A stretch of 25,081 bases of DNA, from positions 1 through 25,081 of IMG/VR virus record IMGVR_UViG_3300025083_000213. One strand, given 5' to 3'. Position 1 is the stretch's first letter. Every line of letters starts with the position of its first letter. This document shows, piece by piece, positions 884-21,412 of this stretch. The stretch comes from a virus. Under the pieces are notes generated by a model. The model saw only the letters and a program-made list of their open reading frames with translations, ran no database searches and was not told the origin of the DNA. The position numbers were made by a program, and so were the translations under genes.

Positions 884-1182
884 TGGGCTTTTATAGTAAG
901 TTAAGAAATGAAGAAGATTCTCCTAGAGAAGATGAAAATGATGCATTAGAGGAACAGTATCAAAAGCTATATAAAAAGATAGCGCGAGATTTTGTTCATG
1001 TAGGTGATTTTCAAAAAGTTATTCTTGACTTAATAAATGATAAGTCTTTTTTAATAGCATTAGCAACAGCAGCAACAAAACAAAAAGCTATTGCTAAAGC
1101 AATAGAGTATAAAGAGAATTTAGAAAAACCAAAGAATCAAAGAACTACTTATAAAGATATTTTGGATAACAAAGATGACTGA
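883..1182 (+). CDS. hypothetical small protein (99 aa)
   Basis: A 99-aa, highly charged, helical protein. It has an acidic N-terminal third (EEDSPREDENDALEEQ), a central amphipathic helix and a basic C-terminal part. An Ala-rich stretch (LIALATAATKQKAIAKAI) lies near residues 55-72. It starts in the TAATG overlap with the preceding gene, and AAGGAGAATATGAATA upstream (867-882) supplies a good ribosome binding site. Its 3' end overlaps the 813-aa gene by 8 nt. No family is recognised; chaperone or minor virion roles are possible but unsupported. Confidence 0.75.
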   Translation: MGFYSKLRNEEDSPREDENDALEEQYQKLYKKIARDFVHVGDFQKVILDLINDKSFLIALATAATKQKAIAKAIEYKENLEKPKNQRTTYKDILDNKDD

Positions 1183-3616
1183 TTTAGAAATAGCATACCC
1201 AGAAATAGTTACATTAATAGAAGCTTATGAAAGAGCTTTATTTAAGAAGATGGAAAAAGATCCATCTGATTCTGATGTACGTACAGCATATATGGCAAAT
1301 TTAATTAACATGGAATCTATTATGCAAGCACATGTTGATGCTAGTAAAGTTTCTGCTGCGAATGTTGTTGATGGGTTGTTAAGTGAACTAAAGAATAAAG
1401 AACGACAAGAAAATTCTAATTTAGACATTGAAACTCAAACTTATGGTTTGGGTAAAAGTAGTCAAAAAAATAACGATAAAGATCCTAAAACTTGGGGTGA
1501 TTATACATACTCTGAATGTACTGTAACAGATATAAATGGTAAAGAGTATAGTGTAAATGACCCTAATGCACCTGATGTGTTTGATGCTACATGGTATGGA
1601 GATAGGGAAAACAATCTTACAGAAGATAGATGGTTTGATGGAGAAGAAATAAAAAAGAAATATGCAGCTAGATTTACTAATAAATTTGAAGCTAGTTATT
1701 CAGCAAGAGTTACTGAGTATTTAGATGATAAAATTGCTGGTGGTACAGGTAAATTAAAAGGTAGTAACTTTTCTATTGAAGATTGTTTAAATTGTGTAAT
1801 TAGAATTGAACTTGATTTACTAGTACCAAACTTAGAAATCGTTATTGACTTTAGTAAACTGCTTAATCAAGTAAAACAATTATTGCAACAGTTGCTGAAC
1901 GATTTAGACCCAACTAAATTGTTCAGTATGATATGTGATTTTTTCTTAAAATTTAAAGGAAACTTTTTATGCCCTCAAAACCTAATAGGCATACAATTAC
2001 TTTTACCTACCTTATTTGCTAAGTTTAGTTTTGATTTAATTAAATTTAGATTTGATTGGACTGCTTTGATAGGGCCTTTAATAAAAGGCATATTAACTTT
2101 CTTAGTATCTTTAATAGAAAACATACCTAAAATAACAAATCCAATAATAGATTGTTTAATTAATAGTATTACGACTGTAATGAAAGCATTACAGTCTATA
2201 GCTTCTTCAATTGATAAAGGTGTAAATGAAGTTGCAGGTGGTATTGAAAAAATAGTTAATAGAGTATTTAGCATTTATGAAAGAATCTTAGAACGTATTT
2301 ATGAAAAAACAGGTGGAAAGGGTCTTATTGGTCAATTTGGTAGTATCAGTTTAGAAAGTGATATGTTTAAAGAAGAATATAAAGAGTTTTTAAAAGAAAA
2401 TGGAGATGTCTTTAATCAAAATGGTGAAGTAAATCCAGAGTATTTTGAAACAGATTTAAATACTGAAAAAGCCAAAGTTGTAGATGATTTTATTTCTTAT
2501 TTAAAATTTGCTTATACTATAAGTCCTCATGATCTTGGATCATCGGGTTCAGATGTAGATGGACTTTCATTTGAAGAAATAACTACATACTTCTTGCAAT
2601 GGTTACAAGAAGATGAAAATTACAAAGATTTTTATACTGTTTTTGTCAATAAAAATCAATATGGTTCAAGACAACAAAAACAAAAAGCAAAAAAATACAA
2701 CGATTTAGTAAAAGAACAAACACAATATCAAGAAAGAATAAAAAAAGAAATAGATGAGGAAAAAAGAGATAAAAATAAAAAATATTTTAAAGCTGGTTTT
2801 ACTATTGAAAAAAATAGTATAAAATTTCCTGCTGTTATTGGTATGAAACCTGGAGCCAAAATAAATAAGTATCAAACAGTAGTACCTTATATTGGCATTG
2901 CTAAAACTAAGAAATTAAAACAAGGCTACCTTCTACAACGTGGTTTTGATGAAGCTGGAACTATAGATAAATCAGAATATAAATGGACTGATTACTTGCA
3001 ATCTAAAGTTGGTTTAGACATTAAAAGCGAATATAGAACTTCAGATTTTCTTGATATTCCAACTCTTAATTTAAGAAAAGCTTTTGATGACACTGTATTT
3101 AAGTTTGTAGATGAGAGAATACTTTACTATTTAAGAATTGCTAAATCTTGGATCAACGAAAGTGTTGGAAATGTTGTAAAGGCTTTAAAAGCTTTACAAC
3201 AATTTATTGGTGAAGCATTTGATGCTGAATTTAAAATACTTGGTGAAATGCAAGAAATCTTACAAATAGTAAGATTTGTAAGATTGATGATAGAGTTGAT
3301 AGATAACGGTTTAACTAATTGTGATGAATTGCGTAAGAATAAAGATGTCTTTCGTAGTATACTTGAAAAATCACAAAGAAACCCTTCTAATGGTAACTAT
3401 GAAACAAGCAACAATGCTTTAACTGTATTAGATGATGACGAAGTATCTAACATGGGTTTAGATCCTGAAGATCATATAGTAATGGTTACTAAAGATAGAA
3501 AATATAATTCTGTAGTTGACTTAAACGAATGTGCTGATGTTTCAAAACATTTAGAAATAAATGATTATAATCTAGACTTAATTTATGAGGGTATAGAAAA
3601 TGGCACAATCGTATGA
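1175..3616 (+). CDS. large virion-type protein (813 aa), function unknown
   Basis: An 813-aa protein with alternating helical and beta segments. Residues about 230-360 are notably hydrophobic (LIGPLIKGILTFLVSLIENI and nearby) and could be membrane-interacting or form a helical bundle; a second long helical region spans about 645-720. Around residues 500-545 there is a Lys/Glu/Gln-rich low-complexity segment. The Cys residues (DCLNCV near 205, plus LCPQN) are scattered with no clear metal site. It overlaps both neighbours, consistent with one polycistronic late mRNA. Large proteins next to head genes in myophages are often baseplate, fibre or internal virion proteins, but no motif decides. Five of the intragenic hairpins lie here, including a 15-bp one at 1893-1928. 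Confidence 0.8.
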   Translation: MTDLEIAYPEIVTLIEAYERALFKKMEKDPSDSDVRTAYMANLINMESIMQAHVDASKVSAANVVDGLLSELKNKERQENSNLDIETQTYGLGKSSQKNNDKDPKTWGDYTYSECTVTDINGKEYSVNDPNAPDVFDATWYGDRENNLTEDRWFDGEEIKKKYAARFTNKFEASYSARVTEYLDDKIAGGTGKLKGSNFSIEDCLNCVIRIELDLLVPNLEIVIDFSKLLNQVKQLLQQLLNDLDPTKLFSMICDFFLKFKGNFLCPQNLIGIQLLLPTLFAKFSFDLIKFRFDWTALIGPLIKGILTFLVSLIENIPKITNPIIDCLINSITTVMKALQSIASSIDKGVNEVAGGIEKIVNRVFSIYERILERIYEKTGGKGLIGQFGSISLESDMFKEEYKEFLKENGDVFNQNGEVNPEYFETDLNTEKAKVVDDFISYLKFAYTISPHDLGSSGSDVDGLSFEEITTYFLQWLQEDENYKDFYTVFVNKNQYGSRQQKQKAKKYNDLVKEQTQYQERIKKEIDEEKRDKNKKYFKAGFTIEKNSIKFPAVIGMKPGAKINKYQTVVPYIGIAKTKKLKQGYLLQRGFDEAGTIDKSEYKWTDYLQSKVGLDIKSEYRTSDFLDIPTLNLRKAFDDTVFKFVDERILYYLRIAKSWINESVGNVVKALKALQQFIGEAFDAEFKILGEMQEILQIVRFVRLMIELIDNGLTNCDELRKNKDVFRSILEKSQRNPSNGNYETSNNALTVLDDDEVSNMGLDPEDHIVMVTKDRKYNSVVDLNECADVSKHLEINDYNLDLIYEGIENGTIV
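1893..1928 (+). repeat. intragenic hairpin, 15 bp with two G-U pairs
   Basis: Core arms 1895-1907 and 1914-1926 with loop ACCCAA. G-U pairs fall at 1901/1920 and 1894/1927, both allowed only in the + strand RNA. Confidence 0.8.
2173..2196 (+). repeat. intragenic hairpin, 10-bp perfect stem, tetraloop
   Basis: GACTGTAATG (2173-2182) pairs with CATTACAGTC (2187-2196), loop AAAG. Confidence 0.82.
3172..3201 (+). repeat. intragenic hairpin, 10-bp perfect stem
   Basis: TGTTGTAAAG (3172-3181) pairs with CTTTACAACA (3192-3201), 10-nt loop. It encodes part of a long helix. Confidence 0.75.
3255..3277 (+). repeat. intragenic hairpin, 9-bp perfect stem
   Basis: AAATCTTAC (3255-3263) pairs with GTAAGATTT (3269-3277), loop AAATA. 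Confidence 0.75.
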
Positions 3617-6428
3617 ACAAGTAAGAAAACAAGCTGCAGAATATAAAAGACAAGTAGAAGAGTTAGAAAGGAAAGAAGGTATTGAGGAAGCAAATAAACT
3701 TCTTAATGAAATAGAAACCTTTATAAAAGATCACGATCCTGAAGAATATAGAATAGCTGTTAGTGAGTTTTTAGATTTAGTTTTTCTTATATTAAATAAC
3801 TATAGTTATCAAAACAAACGTAATAAAAAAGCAGCAGACATGTTAAATGCTTACGAAAAAAGCATGTTCCCATTATCTCCATATTCATTAGATGGAACAA
3901 ATGGAAAATTTTTACCTGAAGACTTAATAGTTAAAAAAGAAGAAGAAATAATAGAAGTAATACAATCATTCCCTAAAAAAGATATTAAAGATTCTAAAAA
4001 AGATACTAAGGAAAGTTATATTGGTATTGACGGACTTTACTTTCATACAGTAGATAAACAAGAAGAATATGTAAATGATAGCTTAGTGACTCCAGATCAA
4101 ATAAATTTGGTAAGTCTTACTGTTAATTTTTCAATGTACAATAATCATGATCCTAGTTTTAGTAATATTATACCTCAAATTCATGATTGGTATGCATTAG
4201 GTAATTATAATTTTGATTTAGATGATTATGAATTTTTTCCTAATAAAGAAAATTCTAAAAATAATTTAGATTACTCTTTATTTTATCTTCATTCAAATTT
4301 TGAAGAAGGATGGTTGGATAGTAGTGGAATATTAGATACGATTCTAGAATTAAGTAATAACAACAGCTTAAGTCCTAATGTTTTTGTTGATCTTTACAAA
4401 ATAAATCGAGGTGGTTTGTTAAATTTTTTTCTTGGTTTTGCAATGGACAGTGATAAAAGTAAAGAACTTAATAAAATAAATCTTTTTTTAGATATGTCTA
4501 TTTTAGAATCTTTATTTAATAAAAATACAAAAAAAATAAAAGAAATTTTTTTTATAGAGCAATTAATTAAAAAACATAATGTAGAAATTCATATTTATAT
4601 AGTAACTGCATTTTCTGAATACTTAAAAAAAGAACCAGCTAAAAGACTTAAAAATTTCCTTATAGAAATAGAAAACAATTATAATAGCAAAGAACAAAGT
4701 AAAGTCAGTGCTGCAGTTGAAAATAGTTTTCTTTCTTTTAATTATATTTCTACATTTGAAGATGTTTATACTGATAGATTTGTTACTGAAGATCAATTAA
4801 ATCTTATTTACCCTTATAATTATTCAACACCCACCCGTTATTATTGGGACAATTTATTTAATAAAGATAAAATAAATTCTAACAATAATCTAGTTTACGA
4901 TAATTATTATGTAGGAATAACAAATTATGAAACAGAAGGTTTTGCTGATGCTTCAACAAAGTTAAGACTTTTTAGAGTTGGAAGTGGTTTACTTAATCCT
5001 TCAGATAATAATTCATTTGTAAATGATTTTATTAGTGTTTTTCCTACTGAATTATTTTATAAATTCTTTAATGATAATGTTGATGAAGCAGAAGTTTTTA
5101 GCAGTACACCAAATGAAAGTTTAATTATTGATTTTCAAACTTATAATTATTTAACTCAAACTACTGTTATTAATAAAATAAATTTATTTTTAGATATTTC
5201 GAATATATTAAATTTGTGTTTTTCTCCAACTGGTATATCAAAATTTGTAAATGAATTTAATAAAATTGAAAAAACATTTGAATTAAAAATACATATTTGG
5301 TTTTTAGAATATAAGATAGAAGAACTCGATGAAAAAACTAAACAAGAGATAGATAAAAGAAAAGCGTTTTTGAATAATTATTTTGCACCAAAAGAAACTA
5401 TACAAGAAAAAAAGAAATTAATAAAAACAACAAAAGTAAAACCTATAGAATCTAAAACCTTAAAAGTGTTTCCTAGAGCAGTTGCTAAAAGTGCAAGCAG
5501 AAAAGCTAAAAGAAGAAAAGTAAAACCAAGAAAGAAACAAATAGCAAATAATAAAGTTAATACTGCTAGTAAAAACAATATAAATAATGATGTACCTGTA
5601 GAATATGTAGATCCAATGGTTTCTATAAATGAAACCATTGGATACAATGGTCAGCCTTTAAAATATGATGAACAATCATTAACTAAAGAAAGAAAATACT
5701 TTGGAATTGATAATAATAAAGAGTATTTGGAATTAAGAAACGAAATAGATCAATTTACTCGTGAACAAAAAGATAAAGCACCATCATATCTACTTGCAAC
5801 TCAATCAGCTGATGGAAAACTTTCTCAAAGTTCAGATGAATATTATTTAGAAGAAGGTAGCGATAAGTTAGATGCACATTTATTTGAATTTAAAGAATTT
5901 CCAAAAGAAAGATTAAAACATTTAGATAAACAAAAAGATAAAATATATTTAATGGGTTATGTTAATACTCAAAATTACACTAAAGTAAATCAATTAATAA
6001 GTGCTTTAAGTAATCAAGAATTGGAGTTACGAAATAGTATAGAAACACTTAACTTCGCAATACTAGATATAACTAATACTAATAGTCAAGATCTTTCTCT
6101 TTTTAATAGAAAAGAGGATTTAAAAGATTATGAAATTGAAAAAAAATCTTATGAAAATGATTTAAGAAATATAAAAAAACAAATAAATGAATTATTAAAA
6201 ATAAGACAAACTATGAAAGAATATAAAAATGATGATGTTGAATATAAAAGAACCCCTTCTTCAAGAAAAATTGTAACTGATGAGGTCCTTATTGATTTCG
6301 CTGAAGGAAGTGAAGCACTTGGAAGAGTAGAAGAAGATAATATAATTTATTTAAGTTACGAAGATTTTATTATACAAAAAGAAATAAAAGCAATTATAGA
6401 TTATAATAATAAAAAACGTAAAAAATAG
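3600..6428 (+). CDS. large repeat-containing virion-type protein (942 aa) with basic linker
   Basis: A 942-aa protein with four visible parts: a helical N-terminus (1-130); two divergent copies of a domain of about 233 residues (about 155-385 and 388-615); a Lys/Arg-rich linker (about 600-650, with SASRKAKRRKVKPRKK); and an acidic/coiled-coil C-terminal region (coiled coil about 790-880). The copies are matched by VTPDQINLV/VTEDQLNLI (residues 163 and 395) and KINLFLDMS/KINLFLDIS (292 and 526), with EIHI/KIHI downstream. Similarity persists in the DNA. The gene is more A+T-rich than its neighbours, and its first 2 kb lack the strong hairpins found elsewhere, which may mean later acquisition. 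It overlaps the upstream gene by 17 nt. Function is not recognised; an extended virion or fibre-like protein is possible. Confidence 0.8.
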   Translation: MAQSYEQVRKQAAEYKRQVEELERKEGIEEANKLLNEIETFIKDHDPEEYRIAVSEFLDLVFLILNNYSYQNKRNKKAADMLNAYEKSMFPLSPYSLDGTNGKFLPEDLIVKKEEEIIEVIQSFPKKDIKDSKKDTKESYIGIDGLYFHTVDKQEEYVNDSLVTPDQINLVSLTVNFSMYNNHDPSFSNIIPQIHDWYALGNYNFDLDDYEFFPNKENSKNNLDYSLFYLHSNFEEGWLDSSGILDTILELSNNNSLSPNVFVDLYKINRGGLLNFFLGFAMDSDKSKELNKINLFLDMSILESLFNKNTKKIKEIFFIEQLIKKHNVEIHIYIVTAFSEYLKKEPAKRLKNFLIEIENNYNSKEQSKVSAAVENSFLSFNYISTFEDVYTDRFVTEDQLNLIYPYNYSTPTRYYWDNLFNKDKINSNNNLVYDNYYVGITNYETEGFADASTKLRLFRVGSGLLNPSDNNSFVNDFISVFPTELFYKFFNDNVDEAEVFSSTPNESLIIDFQTYNYLTQTTVINKINLFLDISNILNLCFSPTGISKFVNEFNKIEKTFELKIHIWFLEYKIEELDEKTKQEIDKRKAFLNNYFAPKETIQEKKKLIKTTKVKPIESKTLKVFPRAVAKSASRKAKRRKVKPRKKQIANNKVNTASKNNINNDVPVEYVDPMVSINETIGYNGQPLKYDEQSLTKERKYFGIDNNKEYLELRNEIDQFTREQKDKAPSYLLATQSADGKLSQSSDEYYLEEGSDKLDAHLFEFKEFPKERLKHLDKQKDKIYLMGYVNTQNYTKVNQLISALSNQELELRNSIETLNFAILDITNTNSQDLSLFNRKEDLKDYEIEKKSYENDLRNIKKQINELLKIRQTMKEYKNDDVEYKRTPSSRKIVTDEVLIDFAEGSEALGRVEEDNIIYLSYEDFIIQKEIKAIIDYNNKKRKK
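5611..5643 (+). repeat. intragenic hairpin, 13-bp perfect stem
   Basis: ATCCAATGGTTTC (5611-5623) pairs with GAAACCATTGGAT (5631-5643), loop TATAAAT. It lies just after the basic linker of the 942-aa protein. Confidence 0.88.
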
Positions 6429-6437
6429 GAAAACAAA

Positions 6438-7964
6438 ATGAGACCTAATACTGCTTTAAATTTAATTAATCATCTATCTTCAAGATCTAACCTTGAAGAT
6501 AGAAATCAACCTTTAAATGTTGAACGCATCTCAGGTGTAAGAGTTAAAAAAGTTAATGGAAGATCTATGACTTATGCTGATAGGCATAGAGGTAATTGGT
6601 TTAAACCTGAATACGATTTAACTGAATTGCAAATAGCTCAAGATACTGATAGCTTTTTATTTAAAGCTATACAAAAAAAAGTACAGCGTTTTGTTTTAGC
6701 TGGTTGGGAATTTGTAGGTAATAATGAGGAAACAGTTAATTATGTAAAGCGTCGTCTCAAAGAGATAGAGTTGGTTAGCGGTGTACCATTTAATTTATTA
6801 CTAACTGATTTAGCTCATGATCTAATTAGGTATAGTAATTGCGCTTGGGTTAAAGTGCGAAACAATGATGCGTCGACAGGACGCATCAGAAATCGTCGAA
6901 ATAAAACTGTTGAACCTGTAGCTGGTTACTTTATTTTACCATTTGAAACTTTATGGTTTAAGGTTAAAAAGAATGGCGAAATAAAAAAGATAATGCAAGA
7001 ACAACCAAATACAGGTGAAACTAAAGAGTTTGCACCTGAAGATGTTATTCATTTTTATACAAATAGAAAGCCTGGATTTACTATGGGTACTCCTGAGCTT
7101 TTACCTGTATTAGAAGACATAGCATTATTACGTCGTTTAGAAGAAAACATAGAAGAAATGATTGATGCTAACTTACATCCTTTGTTTCATTATAAGGTAG
7201 GCAATGATACTCATCCTGAACGTTATGGCCCTGATGGTGTAAAAGAATCTGATCTTGTTAGACAAACAATTGAATATATGCCTTCTGGAGGCATATTCGT
7301 CTCAGATCATAGACATAATATTAATGCTATTGGTTCTGAAGGAAAAGCACTTAAAATTGAAAGCTATTTGGAATACTTTAAAAAAAGAGTATATGCTGGC
7401 TTAGGTGTATCAGCTATTGATATGGGTGAAGGTGATAGTGCTAACAGAAGTACAGCTAATACCTTGTCTAAAATAGCTATACAAGATGTAGAAGCTTTAC
7501 AAAAAACTATAAAAACATTTGTAGAAAACTATGTAATAAGTGAGCTTCTTATTGAAGGTGGTTATGATGATGCATTATTAAATAGTAATGATATGGTGCA
7601 TATGAAGTTTGGTGCTGTTGATAAAGAGATGCAAATGAAAGAAGAAAATCAAACTATTCAATTATGGTTGAATAATTTGATTTCAGAACGTGAAGCTAGA
7701 AAACGTTTAGGTGAAACACCTGTAGCTGATGAAGATAGAGCAAGTACTAACTTTGAGTTATATCAATTGCCATTAGCTTTATTAAAGAGTAATCCTTTAG
7801 CTAAAGTTGATAAAGGTGATGGTTTATCTGAAAATAAAGCACGTCCTGAAAATCAACATGGTAAAAGATTATCACCTAAAACTAATTCTGACGACTCTTT
7901 ATTAAATGACATTTTAAAAGAAGATAATTTAGATATTATTCAAAATATACTTGAAAAGTACTAA
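6438..7964 (+). CDS. portal protein
   Basis: A 508-aa protein of the phage portal family: the dodecameric ring at the capsid vertex that nucleates prohead assembly and passes DNA during packaging. Family-type features include the N-terminal DSFLFKAIQKKVQRFVLAGW segment, the central VIHFYTNRKPGFTMGTPELLPVL motif region (split here as VIHFYTNRKPGFTMG and TPELLPVL), the stretch around AGLGVSAIDMGEGDSANRST that precedes the long clip/stem helices, and a C-terminal region with EREARKRLGETP. Length is normal for the family. It lies immediately upstream of the prohead protease and capsid genes, the standard order. The start at 6438 follows AAAATAGGAAAACAAA (Shine-Dalgarno-like AGGA). The terminase genes are not in this window. 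Several intragenic hairpins occur, one 35 nt after the start codon. Confidence 0.95.
   Translation: MRPNTALNLINHLSSRSNLEDRNQPLNVERISGVRVKKVNGRSMTYADRHRGNWFKPEYDLTELQIAQDTDSFLFKAIQKKVQRFVLAGWEFVGNNEETVNYVKRRLKEIELVSGVPFNLLLTDLAHDLIRYSNCAWVKVRNNDASTGRIRNRRNKTVEPVAGYFILPFETLWFKVKKNGEIKKIMQEQPNTGETKEFAPEDVIHFYTNRKPGFTMGTPELLPVLEDIALLRRLEENIEEMIDANLHPLFHYKVGNDTHPERYGPDGVKESDLVRQTIEYMPSGGIFVSDHRHNINAIGSEGKALKIESYLEYFKKRVYAGLGVSAIDMGEGDSANRSTANTLSKIAIQDVEALQKTIKTFVENYVISELLIEGGYDDALLNSNDMVHMKFGAVDKEMQMKEENQTIQLWLNNLISEREARKRLGETPVADEDRASTNFELYQLPLALLKSNPLAKVDKGDGLSENKARPENQHGKRLSPKTNSDDSLLNDILKEDNLDIIQNILEKY
6473..6503 (+). repeat. intragenic hairpin, 12-bp perfect stem, near portal start
   Basis: TCTATCTTCAAG (6473-6484) pairs with CTTGAAGATAGA (6492-6503), loop ATCTAAC. 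It begins 35 nt after the portal ATG. Confidence 0.87.
6866..6888 (+). repeat. intragenic hairpin, 9-bp GC-rich stem
   Basis: TGATGCGTC (6866-6874) pairs with GACGCATCA (6880-6888), loop GACAG, in the portal gene. Confidence 0.8.
7012..7038 (+). repeat. intragenic hairpin, 11 bp with one bulge, tetraloop
   Basis: CAGGTGAAACT (7012-7022) pairs with 7027-7038, with a single unpaired G at 7032; loop AAAG. Confidence 0.75.
7272..7298 (+). repeat. intragenic hairpin, 2-nt bulge
   Basis: GAAT-(AT)-ATGCC pairs with GGCATATTC (7290-7298); two inner pairs (one T-G) may extend the stem to 11 bp. Confidence 0.6.
7646..7683 (+). repeat. intragenic hairpin, 15 bp with one mismatch
   Basis: Arms 7646-7661 and 7668-7683 pair except C7654/A7675; loop TTATGG. 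In the portal gene. Confidence 0.82.
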
Positions 7965-10799: not shown

Positions 10800-12119
10800 A
10801 TGGCTATTAGTCGTTTCCAAAGTCGTTTTAAAACACGCACTGACTTAATGGACAACATTACACCAAATAATGTTGTCCAAATGAATGCTTCTGTTCCTCA
10901 TGGTGAATGGAAGCCTGCTTCTTGGTTGCCTGTTGTATGGCAAAATGAAAAAAGCAAAGACTACTTTACTATCTCTTCTGGTAAAGTTGTTTCTCTTGAT
11001 GCTTCTGGACGTGTAGTTCCTTCAGGTATTCTTCGTCGTGCTTTAAATGCTACTACCAAAGAAGATCAAATTCTTTTTTATGGTGCAGGTGATATTGAAG
11101 CTCGTGTAATTGATATTCGTACTGGTGCATTTGTTGCAGCTTCTGGTGCAGTAAGCCTTGTAGAATTCTGTACTGCTATTCTTGATAATGGATGGGCACC
11201 AGGATTTGATACTAGTGGTATTAATGATGCATTAGTTACAGGTAATGATGCAGCAGCTGATGCTGTTGATTTAGATAAACGTCAAAAACTTGTAGAAGCA
11301 TTTATTTCTGCTCCTGTAGGCATCGCAGCTTATGACGTTTACGTATGGGCTGGTGACGATCCTGCTAATCTTCATTTCACTAACTACCAAAAACAACACT
11401 TGATTCAGTTCTTTACTGATATTCAAATGAAGGTAGCTCACGTTTGTGAATCAGCAGCATCTACTGTAGCAGTACCAGCTTTAGGAAGTTTTACTACAGG
11501 TGCAACACTTGCAGGAAGACCTCGTTATGTTGGTTTAGATATGACTAACGTTATTGGTTTAGATCTAGGTTTAGGAAAAGTTGCTACTAATACTTCTCGT
11601 ACACCTCTAACACTTGCAGGTAGTTGGCGTGAACGTTCTGATGTAGCTTTGCTTGCTAAAGCTGGTGATTGGTATCTTGACGCAGATGCAGGTATGATTC
11701 TTTTCTATGAAGAAGGTGGAAATGCTATTCCTCTAGATGCTGATAGTGCAGCTTTAGCAGGAAATATTACAGTATTTGAATATAGTGATGCTGTATCTGC
11801 TCAAGAGCGTATGGTAATGATGGTTGGCGATTGTCGTTCTGGCGATTTTGTTAGTTTTGACGAAATGAGTAACTTTGTTGTTGCTGCAGCTGGTGATCAT
11901 ACTGATCAATTAGTTGTTGGTCGTATGCTTGCTCTTTACAAAGAGCCTCGTGGTCTTCTTGAAAGAGTTAAAACTGGATTTAGTGGATCTGAGTTTGATG
12001 CTAGTGCACAAATGCCAGGTTCTGCAACTAAAGGATTCTCTGACCTTATTACACTTTCTGCTCATCATGAAGAAAGTGTTGCTGATGAGATTGCAGTTAT
12101 TAACATTAAGATTCAATAA
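10800..12119 (+). CDS. capsid-associated virion protein (439 aa), probable decoration/head protein
   Basis: A 439-aa protein with a beta-rich N-terminal region (SSGKVVSLDASGRVVPSG, about 60-77) of the kind found in phage capsid-decorating proteins and Ala/Gly-rich structural segments. It lies between protease/scaffold and major capsid genes with an excellent ribosome binding site (CCTAGGAGAATAATTATG). Its codons are noticeably richer in GGT, CGT, GCT and ATT than the genes upstream, like the major capsid gene, suggesting high expression. No enzyme motif, signal peptide or transmembrane segment is visible. Head decoration or stabilisation is an inference from place and composition. A perfect 12-bp hairpin begins 49 nt after the start codon. 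Confidence 0.7.
   Translation: MAISRFQSRFKTRTDLMDNITPNNVVQMNASVPHGEWKPASWLPVVWQNEKSKDYFTISSGKVVSLDASGRVVPSGILRRALNATTKEDQILFYGAGDIEARVIDIRTGAFVAASGAVSLVEFCTAILDNGWAPGFDTSGINDALVTGNDAAADAVDLDKRQKLVEAFISAPVGIAAYDVYVWAGDDPANLHFTNYQKQHLIQFFTDIQMKVAHVCESAASTVAVPALGSFTTGATLAGRPRYVGLDMTNVIGLDLGLGKVATNTSRTPLTLAGSWRERSDVALLAKAGDWYLDADAGMILFYEEGGNAIPLDADSAALAGNITVFEYSDAVSAQERMVMMVGDCRSGDFVSFDEMSNFVVAAAGDHTDQLVVGRMLALYKEPRGLLERVKTGFSGSEFDASAQMPGSATKGFSDLITLSAHHEESVADEIAVINIKIQ
10849..10879 (+). repeat. intragenic hairpin, 12-bp perfect stem, near gene start
   Basis: TGGACAACATTA (10849-10860) pairs with TAATGTTGTCCA (10868-10879), loop CACCAAA. It begins 49 nt after the ATG of the 439-aa virion gene. 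Confidence 0.88.
12051..12079 (+). repeat. intragenic hairpin, 9 bp, near gene end
   Basis: ACACTTTCT (12051-12059) pairs with AGAAAGTGT (12071-12079), 11-nt loop, 40 nt before the stop of the 439-aa gene. Confidence 0.6.
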
Positions 12120-12144
12120 TTAGATTTATATAAAGGGTATTAAA

Positions 12145-13497
12145 ATGACTTTTAAGATGACAGACGGTAATAGTTTAGCTTTACCTACAAATAAAAAGGC
12201 TGCTGCTCGTTATGTAGCTGATATGATTAGTAATCGTGGACACCTTCCTGATTCAGAAGAGCGTGTTACTTGGGATAACTTTGTAAACGTAATTAGTCCT
12301 AAATATCGTGATGCAATCTCTAGTTCTGAAATCACTCCTCTACTTCAAGAAAGTATGGAGATTCTCATTCGTGAGCCTGTAGAACCTAATATGGTTATCA
12401 CTCCATTGTTTACTCGTGTACAAGCTCAAGGCTTGAACACTCAAATCCTTGCTGGTGCAATGGGTGCAGTATATGCTGGTGACGTACAAGAATCAGGTAC
12501 TTACCCAGAAGTAAACTTCCAAATGGGTGGTGCTGTTAGTACTGCTTACATCGGAAAGAGTGGTATTGCTGCTTCTTTCACTGATGAAGCTCTTCGTTAT
12601 AGCACTTTCGATATCATGGCTAAGAACCTTGAACTTATGGGTAATGCAATGATTCGTCACAAAGAGCAAAAAGCTGTTTCTTTCTTGAAGCAACTTGGAA
12701 CTACTCTATTTGACAATCTTAACCCTGCTACATCTCTATATGGTGTAATGACTGGTCGCGGTTTAGTTGCTAAAGCAGATCCTGCTAATGGCTCTGAACT
12801 AAAAGCTAACGGTTCTCTTACAATGGAAAACTTAATGCGTGGTATGGCTCATATGTCAGAAGAAGGATTTACTCCTAACGTATTACTAATGCATCCATTG
12901 TTTTACTACACATTTGTACAAGATCCAGTACTTCGTACTATGATGCTTGCTCATGGTGGTGGTTCTATCTTCAACCCTTACACTGGCGATCCAGGACCTT
13001 TAGATCCTTATAGCAATGGTGCAATGGGTGCTCGTGGACCTTCTAACGGTACACGAGTTATCAATCCTCGTGGAATTGGTACTAGTGGTCAAGGTAGTGG
13101 TGGTACTGCTACTTCTGTACTTGAGCGTAGCCAACGTATGACATCTGCTCCTCGTCTACCTAGCTACTTCCCATTTAACTTCCAAATCATTGTTTCTCCT
13201 CTTTGTCCATATGATCCAGAGTCAGAGACAGGTGATATCTTCCTTCTTTCAAGTGGTAACATTGGTTTCCATCTTGTTGATGAAGAAGCTACTACTGTTG
13301 AATGGCGTGACGAAAACACTGAAACTGTTAAAGTTAAGATCCGTGAGCGTTATGGTTTTGCTGTTGCTCATGAAGGTCAAGGCGTTGGCGTATTCAAGAA
13401 TGTTAAACGCGCTGAAAACAAATGGGATGGCTCTATTGATGCTGCTCCTTCTGATATTATAGAAGTTGCTGAATCAGATGTTAAAGGCAATCTTTAA
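12145..13497 (+). CDS. major capsid protein (HK97 fold)
   Basis: A 450-aa major capsid protein, the main shell subunit. It has the expected downstream position after protease/scaffold, and capsid-type segments. These include an N-arm with LLQESMEILIREPVEPNM-type helix and strand (about 70-90), a long central Ala/Gly-rich region (AGAMGAVYAGDVQESGTYPE, about 103-122), a spine helix near IMAKNLELMGNAMIRHKEQK, and a C-terminal P-domain strand set ending with RERYGFAVAHEGQGVGV. A Gly/Ser/Pro-rich loop (about 275-320) may be a surface insertion. Codon choice is biased to likely highly expressed codons. The ribosome binding site is AAAGGGTATTAAAATG. A strong terminator follows, consistent with abundant separate expression. 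The fold is assigned by pattern and context. Confidence 0.9.
   Translation: MTFKMTDGNSLALPTNKKAAARYVADMISNRGHLPDSEERVTWDNFVNVISPKYRDAISSSEITPLLQESMEILIREPVEPNMVITPLFTRVQAQGLNTQILAGAMGAVYAGDVQESGTYPEVNFQMGGAVSTAYIGKSGIAASFTDEALRYSTFDIMAKNLELMGNAMIRHKEQKAVSFLKQLGTTLFDNLNPATSLYGVMTGRGLVAKADPANGSELKANGSLTMENLMRGMAHMSEEGFTPNVLLMHPLFYYTFVQDPVLRTMMLAHGGGSIFNPYTGDPGPLDPYSNGAMGARGPSNGTRVINPRGIGTSGQGSGGTATSVLERSQRMTSAPRLPSYFPFNFQIIVSPLCPYDPESETGDIFLLSSGNIGFHLVDEEATTVEWRDENTETVKVKIRERYGFAVAHEGQGVGVFKNVKRAENKWDGSIDAAPSDIIEVAESDVKGNL
13031..13057 (+). repeat. intragenic hairpin, 9 bp with one mismatch, in major capsid gene
   Basis: CTCGTG-G-ACC (13031-13040) pairs with GGT-A-CACGAG (13048-13057), loop TTCTAAC. 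Confidence 0.6.
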
Positions 13498-13507
13498 TAG
13501 ATAGCTT

Positions 13508-13537
13508 ATAAATTCTAACTTTCGGGTTAGAATTTAA
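13508..13537 (+). promoter_or_regulatory. hairpin with TTCG loop after the major capsid gene
   Basis: A 12-bp inverted repeat (13509-13520 with 13525-13536; one G-U next to the loop) closes a TTCG tetraloop. It starts 12 nt after the capsid stop codon. There is no T-run after it, so it is more likely an mRNA 3'-end stabiliser or processing site than a terminator by itself. Confidence 0.75.
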
Positions 13538-17291: not shown

Positions 17292-19979
17292 ATGGCCTAT
17301 CAAGATCTTATTTTTAATAACCTAGCAGGTAAAGTTGTTGGCATTTATAATGACAACAACTTACAAAGAGATGTAGAAATACCTTTAGCTAGCCCTCGTC
17401 GTATTATTGCAACTGGAACTGCAACTGCAGGTGCTCGCAACGAACTTTTTAATGTTCGTTCTATTAACACTGCAATGCAAACTTTTGGAAATGATTCTGA
17501 AATTGCAACTATTATTCAACGAGTTGCTAATATAAACACAAATTTCAATTTAAGTGTTATGCGAATTGGTTCTAAACCTTTCCATTGGCGTTTAAAACAA
17601 GACATTGCTGGATCATATGAAAAGGAACCTCTAATTTCTATTGTACCTGTCTTTGTACAAGAAAAAGATGCAACACAAAATATATTTTCTACTTTAGAAA
17701 ATTTAAAAATCGTTTTAATGCCTTTTGTAGATAACAATGTTATTCGTCAACGTGTAATCTTGTTTAACCATGATCGAAATCCTGATTCTACTAATGCTAT
17801 TTATGATTCTGAAAGATTACTTGTTGCTAATGGCGAAGTAGGTTTTGAGGTTTCTATTGATGTGCCATACGGTACTGTACTTTATACTCCAAATGCCTTT
17901 TCTGCTAATACTCAAATAGGTAATGGATATACAGATGCACAATTAGCAACACTTTCTGAAGTTAATGCATTTCTAACTGATAGTATGACTGTTTTAAGTG
18001 ATGAAGCTAACTTTGACACTGCTATCTCTTCTATTAATACTATTAATAGAAGCGTTAATACATTAAGCGGAATAACTGGATACCATTTAGATGTTTATGC
18101 TGGTAAAAGCCAAAAGAAATTAAATTACTGTGAAAGATATATTAACAATGAAGAAGCTTATCGTGTTCTTGAATTCCAGAATGCAGATTTTCTTTATTGT
18201 GAAGGATGTTTTGCAGATATTAAACCAGTATCTTTAATTGGTAAAAATGCTGCATTTGCATTAAACTGGGCATCAGAAAACTTAGGTTATCTTTGGAAAT
18301 ATGTATTCAATGGTCGTTCATATTCTTATATGTTCCGTACAGCAGAACCATTTACAAATACTTTAGTAACAAGCACTTATACAAATGACGGTGTTACTTA
18401 TAACTTCTCTGCTAGTAATAAGTTGCTTGGTGATTTATTAAATCTTGTAGAAATACACCTACATCCTAAAGCTCAAGGAACAGCTACTGACATTGAAACT
18501 TTTTCTAATGAAAAAGGTATTATTGAATGTCATGTAGACTTTGATTGTGATCCTACAACTGCTACAGATGCAAGAGGAAGAACAGAAGCTGAATTTGTTT
18601 TACTAGCAGGGTATAACGATGCAAACAATGATGGTGAAGATGATGTTACTGGTTTAAATAACGCAGCACATACTGCTTATGTTGATGCAGGATGGATCGA
18701 AGCAGTTGGAACTATTACTTTACAAACACCATTCTGTGAACTGCAATTTGATGTAACTAAATTTAACGATGGTGATGCTGACTATACAAAGCGTCTTCGT
18801 CCATCTTTAATTGATGTAAGTGATGCAGTAAGTACTTTATTAAGAAATGGTGACAGTGGAAACAATGACCCATTTGTAATCTCTCATTGGGATATGGCAC
18901 AAGATGAGATTCCTGAAGGTGTTATAGCAAGACTTATTAATTTCCCAGAAACTGGAGCTTCAGCTGCTACACTAGTAGCATCTAACTTAGAAGTACGTGA
19001 AGTTTCTTTCTTACATCAAGTAGCCCAAGCTGCTTATCAAGCTTCTAGTAACTATAATCACACTGTAGGACTTGTTCCGACAAGTCATCCTAGTTCATCT
19101 AAAACTGGTTTGCATGTATGGGCAGGTAATCCTGCTGAGTACGAGGTAAAAGAAGATGGAAGTATTGTTGTTACCAAAAATGGTACTGGCATTTTAGGTA
19201 ACAAATTGTTAGCTGGTGAAGTTGGCTATCGCGATAGTGCTGCTTTTGGTGGTATCATCCTTACTAATGGTGAGGATTTACCAAATGATTTACCTTATGG
19301 TATCGATGATAGTGATGAAGCATTAGATGTAAATAACAACCCAATAGATTTAGGTAAACATGTTGTTGTTGTTGGATCTTATGGATATGTACCTGATCCT
19401 AGAAATTCATTCACAGCGAACAGAGGTAAAGTAAGTCGTATCAATCCTTTCAACAATCCTCTTTATGTAAATGCTGGTCCTAGTATTGCTCAAATCCTTT
19501 GTGATCTTCCTCCAGGAAATGAGCCTATTGGTCCTGTAAATGGTGCTGTTGCTGGATTTAATAACAGAATGCAAACACCTAGACAGATTCTTAACAACTT
19601 AGCTGCTTTGCGTATTTGTATGATTGGTCAAGATAGTGTTATCTCATCAATTTATACAGCTGCTTTAAGAACTTCAGACTACACAAAAATCTCTTCAATT
19701 ATTTCTTCAAATGAAATATTGAAGAGAGTACGTCAATATGCAGCACCTGTTCTTGGTCAAGCATTAAGTGATGCAACTATTAATAGCTTAGATACTACAA
19801 TGTTAGGTTTATCTAATGCGTTAAAGAACGAAGGATATGCACAAGCATGTCGTATCCAATTGCGTGCTAATCGTTTAGATCGTATTAATGGCGTTTTGAA
19901 TGCAAGAGTTAGCTTTGTACCTCCATTTAGCTTGGAGACTATCAATGTTGACATTACTCTTGAAGCACCTGCAGTTTAA
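17292..19979 (+). CDS. tail sheath protein (895 aa)
   Basis: This is the contractile sheath subunit. The C-terminal domain is typical: LAALRICMIGQDSV, a helical segment, ACRIQLRANRLDRINGVLNA and the final strands with SFVPPFSLETINVDITLE, which provide the donor and acceptor strands of the sheath mesh. The N-terminus (AGKVVGIYNDNNLQ and SPRRIIATGTATAGARNELF) fits the first sheath domain. At 895 aa it is larger than most sheaths (about 400-700 aa), the extra length lying in the middle (about 150-700) as surface-exposed insertion domains. AGGAGTTTAATATG gives a strong ribosome binding site. The tube genes follow at once, the usual order. Hairpins lie at 17332, 18028, 19168 and 19690. Confidence 0.92.
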   Translation: MAYQDLIFNNLAGKVVGIYNDNNLQRDVEIPLASPRRIIATGTATAGARNELFNVRSINTAMQTFGNDSEIATIIQRVANINTNFNLSVMRIGSKPFHWRLKQDIAGSYEKEPLISIVPVFVQEKDATQNIFSTLENLKIVLMPFVDNNVIRQRVILFNHDRNPDSTNAIYDSERLLVANGEVGFEVSIDVPYGTVLYTPNAFSANTQIGNGYTDAQLATLSEVNAFLTDSMTVLSDEANFDTAISSINTINRSVNTLSGITGYHLDVYAGKSQKKLNYCERYINNEEAYRVLEFQNADFLYCEGCFADIKPVSLIGKNAAFALNWASENLGYLWKYVFNGRSYSYMFRTAEPFTNTLVTSTYTNDGVTYNFSASNKLLGDLLNLVEIHLHPKAQGTATDIETFSNEKGIIECHVDFDCDPTTATDARGRTEAEFVLLAGYNDANNDGEDDVTGLNNAAHTAYVDAGWIEAVGTITLQTPFCELQFDVTKFNDGDADYTKRLRPSLIDVSDAVSTLLRNGDSGNNDPFVISHWDMAQDEIPEGVIARLINFPETGASAATLVASNLEVREVSFLHQVAQAAYQASSNYNHTVGLVPTSHPSSSKTGLHVWAGNPAEYEVKEDGSIVVTKNGTGILGNKLLAGEVGYRDSAAFGGIILTNGEDLPNDLPYGIDDSDEALDVNNNPIDLGKHVVVVGSYGYVPDPRNSFTANRGKVSRINPFNNPLYVNAGPSIAQILCDLPPGNEPIGPVNGAVAGFNNRMQTPRQILNNLAALRICMIGQDSVISSIYTAALRTSDYTKISSIISSNEILKRVRQYAAPVLGQALSDATINSLDTTMLGLSNALKNEGYAQACRIQLRANRLDRINGVLNARVSFVPPFSLETINVDITLEAPAV
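17332..17362 (+). repeat. intragenic hairpin, 13 bp with one mismatch, near sheath start
   Basis: AAGTTGTTG (17332-17340) pairs with CAACAACTT (17354-17362); after a G/A mismatch, CATT pairs with AATG around a TAT loop. It begins 40 nt after the sheath ATG. Confidence 0.78.
18028..18052 (+). repeat. intragenic hairpin, 11-bp perfect stem, triloop
   Basis: CTTCTATTAAT (18028-18038) pairs with ATTAATAGAAG (18042-18052), loop ACT. Confidence 0.82.
19168..19204 (+). repeat. intragenic hairpin, 14 bp with one mismatch
   Basis: TTGTTACC (19168-19175) pairs with GGTAACAA (19197-19204); after an A/A mismatch, AAAATG pairs with CATTTT; loop GTACTGG. Confidence 0.82.
19690..19727 (+). repeat. intragenic hairpin, 15 bp with one bulge
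   Basis: TCTCTTCAAT (19690-19699) pairs with ATTGAAGAGA (19718-19727); after a bulged T, ATTTC pairs with GAAAT; loop TTCAAAT. Confidence 0.84.
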
Positions 19980-20848: not shown

Positions 20849-21412
20849 ATGTCAACTATTTATCCGATTCGCTATTCATTTTCAGGTGCAGATTGTAGAG
20901 CTTACGGTTACTTTGATAGTGGTAAACCAACTCCAGAAAATATTGGTCATAATAATTTATGGTTATATCCTAGAATTCCAGTACTTTTAAATAACTTTGC
21001 AACAATATCGCTTTCAATACATGAGTCTAAATCACCTGTTAGAAGATTGGGGCATATGGCTCCTGTTGGATATACAAGAGCAGTTAGAACCATTGCTGGA
21101 TCAATGGTTCTAACTATAATCGGAAGTAATCATCCTTTAACAGAATTATCAATTAAAGACCCTTATTCAATAACGCATTTTAGTATGGACTCAGATAATA
21201 GTTCTAATATTGTAACAAAGATGAGTCCTTTTAATTTGATATTACTTTATAAGTCTGAATTGCCTGGAGCATCTGGATCTAAAATGAAAATTAAAGGTGT
21301 AGAATTTATAAATGAAGGTATAGTAACGTCTGTAAATGATTTAGTAAGTGAAGTAGTGTTACAATTTGTTGCATTAGATATCGAACAATTTGAAAGCGAT
21401 AGTTATTTATGA
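20849..21412 (+). CDS. tube-fold paralogue, second copy (187 aa)
   Basis: A divergent paralogue of the tube protein. SGADCRAYGYFDSGKP, PVRRLGHMAPVGYTRAV and RTIAGSMVLTIIG align without gaps to SGVDIRVIVNG, APIYVMGSVDPVSYSRGK and RGIAGTMISLMM of the first copy. It probably forms a specialised ring at one end of the tube (initiator or terminator side) or part of the baseplate hub; the sequence does not decide. Its stop overlaps the next start (ATGA). The RTIAGSMVLT segment is encoded by the longest perfect hairpin in the window (21082-21115). Confidence 0.8.
   Translation: MSTIYPIRYSFSGADCRAYGYFDSGKPTPENIGHNNLWLYPRIPVLLNNFATISLSIHESKSPVRRLGHMAPVGYTRAVRTIAGSMVLTIIGSNHPLTELSIKDPYSITHFSMDSDNSSNIVTKMSPFNLILLYKSELPGASGSKMKIKGVEFINEGIVTSVNDLVSEVVLQFVALDIEQFESDSYL
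21082..21115 (+). repeat. intragenic hairpin, 14-bp perfect stem (longest perfect in window)
   Basis: AGTTAGAACCATTG (21082-21095) pairs with CAATGGTTCTAACT (21102-21115), loop CTGGAT. It encodes the conserved RTIAGSM motif of the second tube paralogue. Confidence 0.92.

Follow-up and report, generated by a model that had tools for sequence, protein, structure and literature searches.

Perfect hairpins with stems of at least 10 bp are scattered over a 25,081-base virus sequence (record IMGVR_UViG_3300025083_000213; the whole stretch analyzed is called the window here), and none of them lies at positions 3600-5610, inside a gene encoding 942 amino acids (aa). Does this bare stretch mark a segment that arrived recently, as an earlier note proposed on the premise that hairpins accumulate over time in this lineage? 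Very probably, the gap arose by chance among about 23 hairpins, 22 of them intragenic, and the gene occupies, as an accessory gene, a variable slot between an 813-aa structural gene and the portal gene, whose content is gained, lost, exchanged or rapidly diversified among related phages. The surprise of this locus is its intragenic hairpin load, with an excess of 8.6 per 10 kb compared with at most 3.6 in relatives and 1.2 in reference phages.

Gene Content and Sequence Support

The window is a fragment of a contractile-tail phage, and its assigned genes are all located on the plus strand (Table 1). A weak tape-measure-like match (best 2.1e-4) was found in residues 226-366 of the 813-aa gene product. 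The related set consisted of 30 viral loci obtained by a portal search, including L002, a contig of the same species from another record that is 99.94% identical to the window over 14.5 kb. Another same-species contig from a different record, L039, is 99.99% identical over 9.0 kb. None of the nine sites that differ from L002, nor the single site that differs from L039, lies in a listed stem. Since both contigs are near-identical to the window and differ from it outside the stems, an assembly artefact of one record was ruled out as the source of the stems. Five of the nine differences from L002 fall in 72 bases (window 1727-1798); all nine are transitions and six are synonymous. A search for further contigs via the last gene of the window returned none, and a literature search of limited coverage found no publication title on this phage or its slot.

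Table 1. Genes, hairpins and intervals of the window discussed in the text.
Feature	Position	Strand	Remark
813-aa gene	1175..3616	+	Upstream border of the slot
942-aa gene	3600..6428	+	Lineage-specific, in the variable slot
Hairpin "desert"	3600..5610		0 perfect stems of at least 10 bp (loop 3-20)
Duplication unit 1	4020..4694	+	Diverged; from protein self-alignment
Duplication unit 2	4731..5414	+	Diverged; from protein self-alignment
13-bp perfect stem, loop 7	5611..5643		Inside the 942-aa gene, one base beyond the end of the "desert"
Portal gene	6438..7964	+	Downstream border of the slot; PHROGs match, Pfam match under the cut-off
12-bp stem	10849..10879		Arms identical in L006, loop different
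Longest gap between stems of at least 10 bp	10880..13508		Covers most of the 439-aa gene and the capsid gene
Capsid gene	12145..13497	+	PHROGs match; Pfam match over the cut-off
Stem directly after the capsid gene	13509-13536		A+T-rich, without a T-run
Tail sheath gene	17292..19979	+	PHROGs match alone
Longest stem of the window (14 bp, loop 6)	21082..21115		Intragenic

Extent of the Hairpin Gap

Perfect stems with loops of 3-20 nt were listed over the whole window. As the earlier note had reported, stems of at least 10 bp are absent from positions 3600-5610 (0 of 23), and its figure of one hairpin per 500-700 bp in the flanks agrees with the 35 stems of at least 9 bp found outside this stretch, one per about 660 bp. 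The window holds 37 stems of at least 9 bp, counting one overlapping pair, and two of them lie inside the gap. These two (4529-4553 and 4851-4878) had been thought to rely on G-U pairs, and proved to be perfect Watson-Crick stems of A and T. The gap also contains one stem of at least 11 bp with a G-T pair.

A gap of this size is ordinary for the scatter of these hairpins. At the mean stem rate of the window, an empty stretch of 2011 bp has a probability of 0.16, and among 23 uniform random points a largest gap of at least 2326 bp is expected with P = 0.98. The largest gap observed lies elsewhere (10879-13509, 2630 bp) and covers the whole capsid gene. Of the 30 related loci, 21 share the 439-aa gene and 20 the capsid gene, many of the others being cut by contig ends. 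Stem-free stretches of 2,011 bases make up 4.3% of all stretches of that length and derive from the two longest gaps. The 942-aa gene as a whole has one stem of at least 10 bp against 2.6 expected (P for one or fewer, 0.27). Positions 3600-5610 lack the excess seen elsewhere in the window, with no stem observed against 0.28 and 0.08 expected from dinucleotide and synonymous shuffles, respectively, and are too short for significance. These results show that the "desert" is within chance.

Hairpin Load of the Window and of Other Phages

Unlike the gap, the intragenic hairpin load is beyond chance. The 23 perfect stems of at least 10 bp compare with 1.0 expected from 50 dinucleotide shuffles in 500-base blocks and 2.6 from 50 synonymous-codon shuffles, and the excess of 10-14 bp stems is thus 22-fold and 9-fold, respectively. 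Twenty-two of the stems are intragenic, where 1.05 were expected. Per 10 kb of coding DNA, the intragenic excess is 8.6 in the window and 7.3 in the same-species contig L002, ranges from -0.24 to 3.56 in 17 other relatives of at least 10 kb, and from -0.23 to 1.16 in seven reference-phage stretches (KLEB27-3, ME3, MTATph1, T4, P-SSM2, HTVC008M and phiKZ), which were chosen and are not a random sample. Three of these, Bacillus phage vB_BauM_KLEB27-3, Acinetobacter phage vB_AbaM_ME3 and Moorella phage MTATph1, have portal and capsid proteins 31-34% and 22-31% identical to those of the window, an intragenic excess that does not exceed 0.95 per 10 kb over the first 40 kb, and no homologue of the 942-aa protein. 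In raw counts per 10 kb, the window has 9.2 stems, and the shorter contigs L015, L005 and L031 have 5.1, 4.2 and 3.5, respectively. The spacing of the 22 intragenic stems (71-23528) is slightly more even than random (CV 0.68 vs 0.93, P = 0.049). A 17-bp perfect stem with a loop of 11 was observed in the tail sheath gene of L017 (position 17754), whose hairpin load is also raised.

Perfect inverted repeats have been surveyed across 118,019 genomes with arms of at least 10 and a spacer of 0-8 (PMC13155455). The available part of that survey gives a mean of 1.93 for viruses, values of 12.0 and 9.7 for the two phyla with the highest density, and up to 180 for single genomes. With the same definition, the window reaches 19.7 bp per kb, its relatives of at least 10 kb 0-12.0, and the reference phages 0-4.3. 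The density of the window is therefore high and no record, and its repeats are mostly intragenic, whereas those described in the available part of the survey lie mostly between genes. By that account, perfect short inverted repeats are approximately 10 times as abundant in this phage species as in the published virus average. For coding DNA, a small excess of short perfect inverted repeats of 6-9 bp has been described, and template switching was suggested as their origin (PMC4060949, section 4.1). The hairpins of the window are of the same kind as those described in that section, a coding excess, but have stems of 10-14 bp and a 9- to 22-fold excess.

Features and Origin of the Hairpins

Loop, GC, T-run and codon tallies were made without L002, and identical hairpins were counted once. 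Perfect arms with short loops exceed sequence-matched controls, as template switching would produce; the loops of the 22 intragenic stems measure 3-18 nt and are at most 8 nt long in 16. The GC content of the intragenic stems (0.302) is close to that of the window (0.313), and they are not followed by a T-run (T fraction 0.31 vs a background of 0.32). Among 14 near-perfect stems with one mismatch and at least 10 pairs, there are three G-T, three A-C and eight other mismatches (0.7, 0.45 and 3.2 expected), and no preference for G-U over A-C was seen in these small numbers, in keeping with an origin at the DNA level. Codons in the arms end in G or C more often (GC3 0.192) than those in chance stems of at least 8 bp from synonymous shuffles (0.075). 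Third positions in the arms thus follow pairing and not codon bias, which we count among the signs of DNA-level copying. The stems fall into codon-phase classes of 8, 8 and 6, numbers too small to indicate a preference.

Two other identities of the hairpins were rejected. Intrinsic terminators do not agree with 22 of 23 being intragenic, with stems that are not G+C-rich or with the lack of a T-run. A REP-like repeat family would share a consensus, and no common motif was found among the 23 hairpins: the longest word present in two of them is 10 nt, against a mean of 12.2 in random segments. Directly after the capsid gene, the relatives have stems of another kind. A stem of at least 8 bp lies within 70 bases of the capsid stop in 13 of the 16 relatives not cut there by a contig end; most are G+C-rich with a T-run, and they are probably terminators.

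Hairpins were also compared at homologous sites of the relatives. For 24 window stems of at least 9 bp, a stem of at least 8 bp was present in 17 of 394 comparisons and absent in 377; random sites have one in 1.2%, so that homologous sites are 3.5 times richer. A few window stems recur in relatives with the same arms, one such case being the 12-bp stem shared with L006 (Table 1). In homologues of the 921-aa gene, a near-identical intragenic hairpin was seen in L008 (3503), L012 (11824), L017 (8788) and L031 (919); no stem of at least 8 bp of this sequence is in the window list.

In the proposed mechanism, the polymerase would briefly switch template during replication and copy one arm as an inverted repeat, leaving perfect arms around a short loop; in this lineage, such switches would be unusually frequent. 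That the window hairpins arise by such template switching at the DNA level is our best guess, held at about even chances. Selected mRNA elements acting in stability, pausing or processing, which the 942-aa gene does without, are an unlikely alternative origin for the intragenic hairpins. The enrichment at homologous sites and the few recurring stems speak for such elements, as do the homologous-looking hairpins of the 921-aa gene family in L003 (5271) and L005 (3251), which by eye seem to include a compensating base pair; stability has also been proposed for a hairpin excess in coding sequence (Katz and Burge, cited in section 4.1 of PMC4060949). Template switching fits better than a function in RNA because there is no G-U preference, stem GC equals the background, T-runs are lacking and most hairpin sites are not common to the relatives. 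The terminator-like stems after the relatives' capsid genes, which do tend to be G+C-rich and followed by a T-run, also differ from the intragenic hairpins.

It is rather doubtful, though conceivable, that the replication apparatus used by this lineage, its own or the host's, writes perfect short inverted copies into coding genes at several times the rate of that of the relatives. If this were true, the hairpin load would be a readable mutational record and slot genes could be dated given whole genomes.

A single template-switch event can make a perfect stem, and coding genes are affected, as described in the available parts of PMC8794818 and PMC8604942. The window likewise has perfect stems in coding genes; its arms show no consistent polarity, and no near ancestor is available. 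For the arm tests, L002 and any comparator at least 93% identical to the tested row were excluded, and collapsing identical hairpins reduced their number from 126 to 103. The 5' arm was less relative-like in 12 of 15 window stems of at least 10 bp (p = 0.035; 17 of 24 for stems of at least 9 bp). Among six added downstream stems it was so in one, giving 13 of 21 in total (p = 0.38), and in stems of relatives the 5' arm was less conserved in 17 of 36. Arm polarity was dropped as proof of template switching on these totals. An apparent flip of polarity near 17 kb (Fisher p = 0.003) was likewise set aside, being post hoc, dependent on different sets of relatives and discordant with codon typicality: the 5' arm was the less codon-typical one in 10 of 15 stems upstream and 6 of 7 downstream of about 17 kb. 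Codon typicality alone gave 16 of 22 window stems (Wilcoxon p = 0.13) and 25 of 46 in relatives. A comparison of the less conserved arm with its flanks (p = 6.6e-6) was discarded, since choosing the minimum biases it; against controls of the same geometry, the arm difference was not above that of random segment pairs. The hairpin events are not datable, since the closest non-conspecific portal among the tree loci is at most 75% identical to that of the window.

Composition and Duplication of the 942-aa Gene

The gap had been described as the most A+T-rich stretch. The lowest GC content of any 500-bp bin (0.216) is indeed found at 5001-5500, but the A+T richness continues to about position 6500. 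GC content in the 942-aa gene is 0.098 at third and 0.063 at fourfold sites, within the ranges of the other window genes (0.090-0.231 and 0.026-0.145, respectively), and its codon usage is typical. Composition at synonymous sites and codon usage, checks of the kind that the earlier note had named, therefore do not set the gene apart. The internal duplication that it had noticed was confirmed at the protein level, where the local score of 118 was reached by none of 1000 shuffles (46 ± 8). This duplication is old and is barely visible in the DNA (score 49, maximum 48 among 300 shuffles).

The 942-aa protein has no significant match in Pfam (best 0.76), PHROGs or PDB sequences, and no homologue was found in 50,697 phage records. 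Tested as a virion-associated cell-wall hydrolase, it matched no catalytic domain in Pfam, PHROG or PDB sequences. Structure prediction gave a mean pLDDT of 33.5 for the protein alone and 44.4 for the first repeat when the second served as its alignment, both unusable.

A Variable Slot between the 813-aa and Portal Genes

The 942-aa gene is present in one of the 30 related loci, the same-species L002. In eighteen loci, a gene of the 813-aa family and the start of the portal gene can both be identified. Counting a slot as filled when it holds a gene of at least 100 aa, eight of them (L002 included) are filled, with genes of 465-1096 aa; in the other ten, the gap is 3-22 bases in eight and 159 and 203 bases in two. 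In three more contigs, which start just inside the 813-family gene, inspection by eye showed no gap in L016 and a short one, with no large gene, in L005 and L022. The slot proteins of the relatives form several groups without a mutual match, and the 942-aa protein matches none of them outside its species (best E value 1.4).

Differing slots were found even among phages with portals 98.0-99.6% identical (slot sequences of L007, L011, L013 and L018 are partial). L004 and L005 are 98.0% identical in the portal and 96.9% in the 921-aa protein, yet the slot of L004 holds a 1010-aa gene and that of L005 approximately 200 bases, in which any reading frame is short. In L011 and L013, the portal (99.5%), the 921-aa protein (98.9%) and the 439-aa protein (99.1%) are nearly the same, and the C-termini of the slot proteins do not match. 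The slot proteins of L004 and L007 are 42% identical over the readable part, with portals at 98.6%; those of L014 and L020 are 65% identical, compared with 90-99% for neighbours, and those of L018 and L019 79%, compared with 99.6-99.8%. Between conserved flanks, the genes are thus absent, unrelated or hyperdivergent, as in a variable accessory-gene slot. Such a portal-adjacent slot, with differing genes or none at near-identical portals, is probably a place where these phages adapt to their hosts.

A portal tree, constructed from 29 rows without L002 and L031, places the window as sister to a clade of 14 rows (support 98/96), but its long end branch (0.44) makes the placement unsure. Within the sister clade, most readable slots are filled, that of L005 excepted; among the readable slots outside it, those of L023 and L024 alone are filled. 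The slot may therefore have long been filled and its gene since replaced or diverged.

Origin of the 942-aa Gene

Judged from the gene content of the slot and not from the absent hairpins, it is plausible that the 942-aa gene is a lineage-specific arrival, possibly by exchange. The part of the earlier proposal that stands is that arrival is plausible given the variability of the slot; the reasoning from hairpins fails, and "recent" is not supported. Its neighbours are kept in the relatives and the 942-aa gene is missing there, so the sharing of the gene with the same synteny that had been named as counting against the proposal was not found. The suggested count of hairpins per gene went against its logic. 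In eight relatives, the slot genes have more stems of at least 10 bp than the rest (7 in 18.1 kb vs 22 in 120.7 kb; ratio 2.1, binomial p = 0.09), and for stems of at least 9 bp there are 14 in slot genes and 43 elsewhere (p = 0.017). These overall ratios of 2.1-2.2 come from small numbers, with the A+T richness of slot genes uncontrolled. The pool comprised the eight relatives with a readable slot gene, of which L008 is cut at the start and L014 and L020 are related to each other; the copies L025 and L024 and the partial L007, L011, L013 and L018 were excluded.

That the stretch is bare because hairpins accumulate with time and the gene is recent is thus very improbable. This would agree with the lineage-specificity of the gene, with the variability of the slot and with the missing flank-like excess at 3600-5610, but such a gap is expected by chance, the conserved capsid region shows a longer one, the gene itself holds a 13-bp stem, the slot genes of eight relatives are richer in stems than the rest of their sequence, and the codon usage of the gene matches that of its neighbours. 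Inferring a recent arrival from a lack of hairpins is unsafe, and this step was removed. Less likely than not, though to be taken more seriously than the hairpin clock, is the reading that the 942-aa gene is not foreign: it would be orthologous to the other slot genes and evolve very fast. In the sister clade, a slot gene of some kind does occur in the majority of observable members, those of L004, L014, L019 and L020 occupy the same place with an overlapping start, and two pairs of near-identical phages have slot proteins that diverge far beyond their neighbours (65% and 79% identity). The 942-aa protein, however, has no detectable similarity to other slot proteins at a best E value of 1.4, the slot proteins of the relatives themselves fall into several unmatched groups, and in L005, which belongs to this clade, the slot holds no large gene.

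Possible Role of the Slot Proteins

The slot protein would be an accessory protein of the virion that acts during host entry. We put this role forward tentatively, as it follows weakly from the slot protein of L029, which has a weak Amidase_2 match (24.2 bits, under the cut-off of 26) and weak endolysin matches. The slot protein of L004 (6912-9941) contains what we take to be an HExxH-like motif, and those of L014 (7722-9959) and L019 (7766-9976) contain Cys/His motifs that we presume to be reminiscent of cysteine peptidases; none of the three has a model match. The unrelated 465-aa slot protein of L023 (8527-9921) appears by eye to contain an internal repeat.
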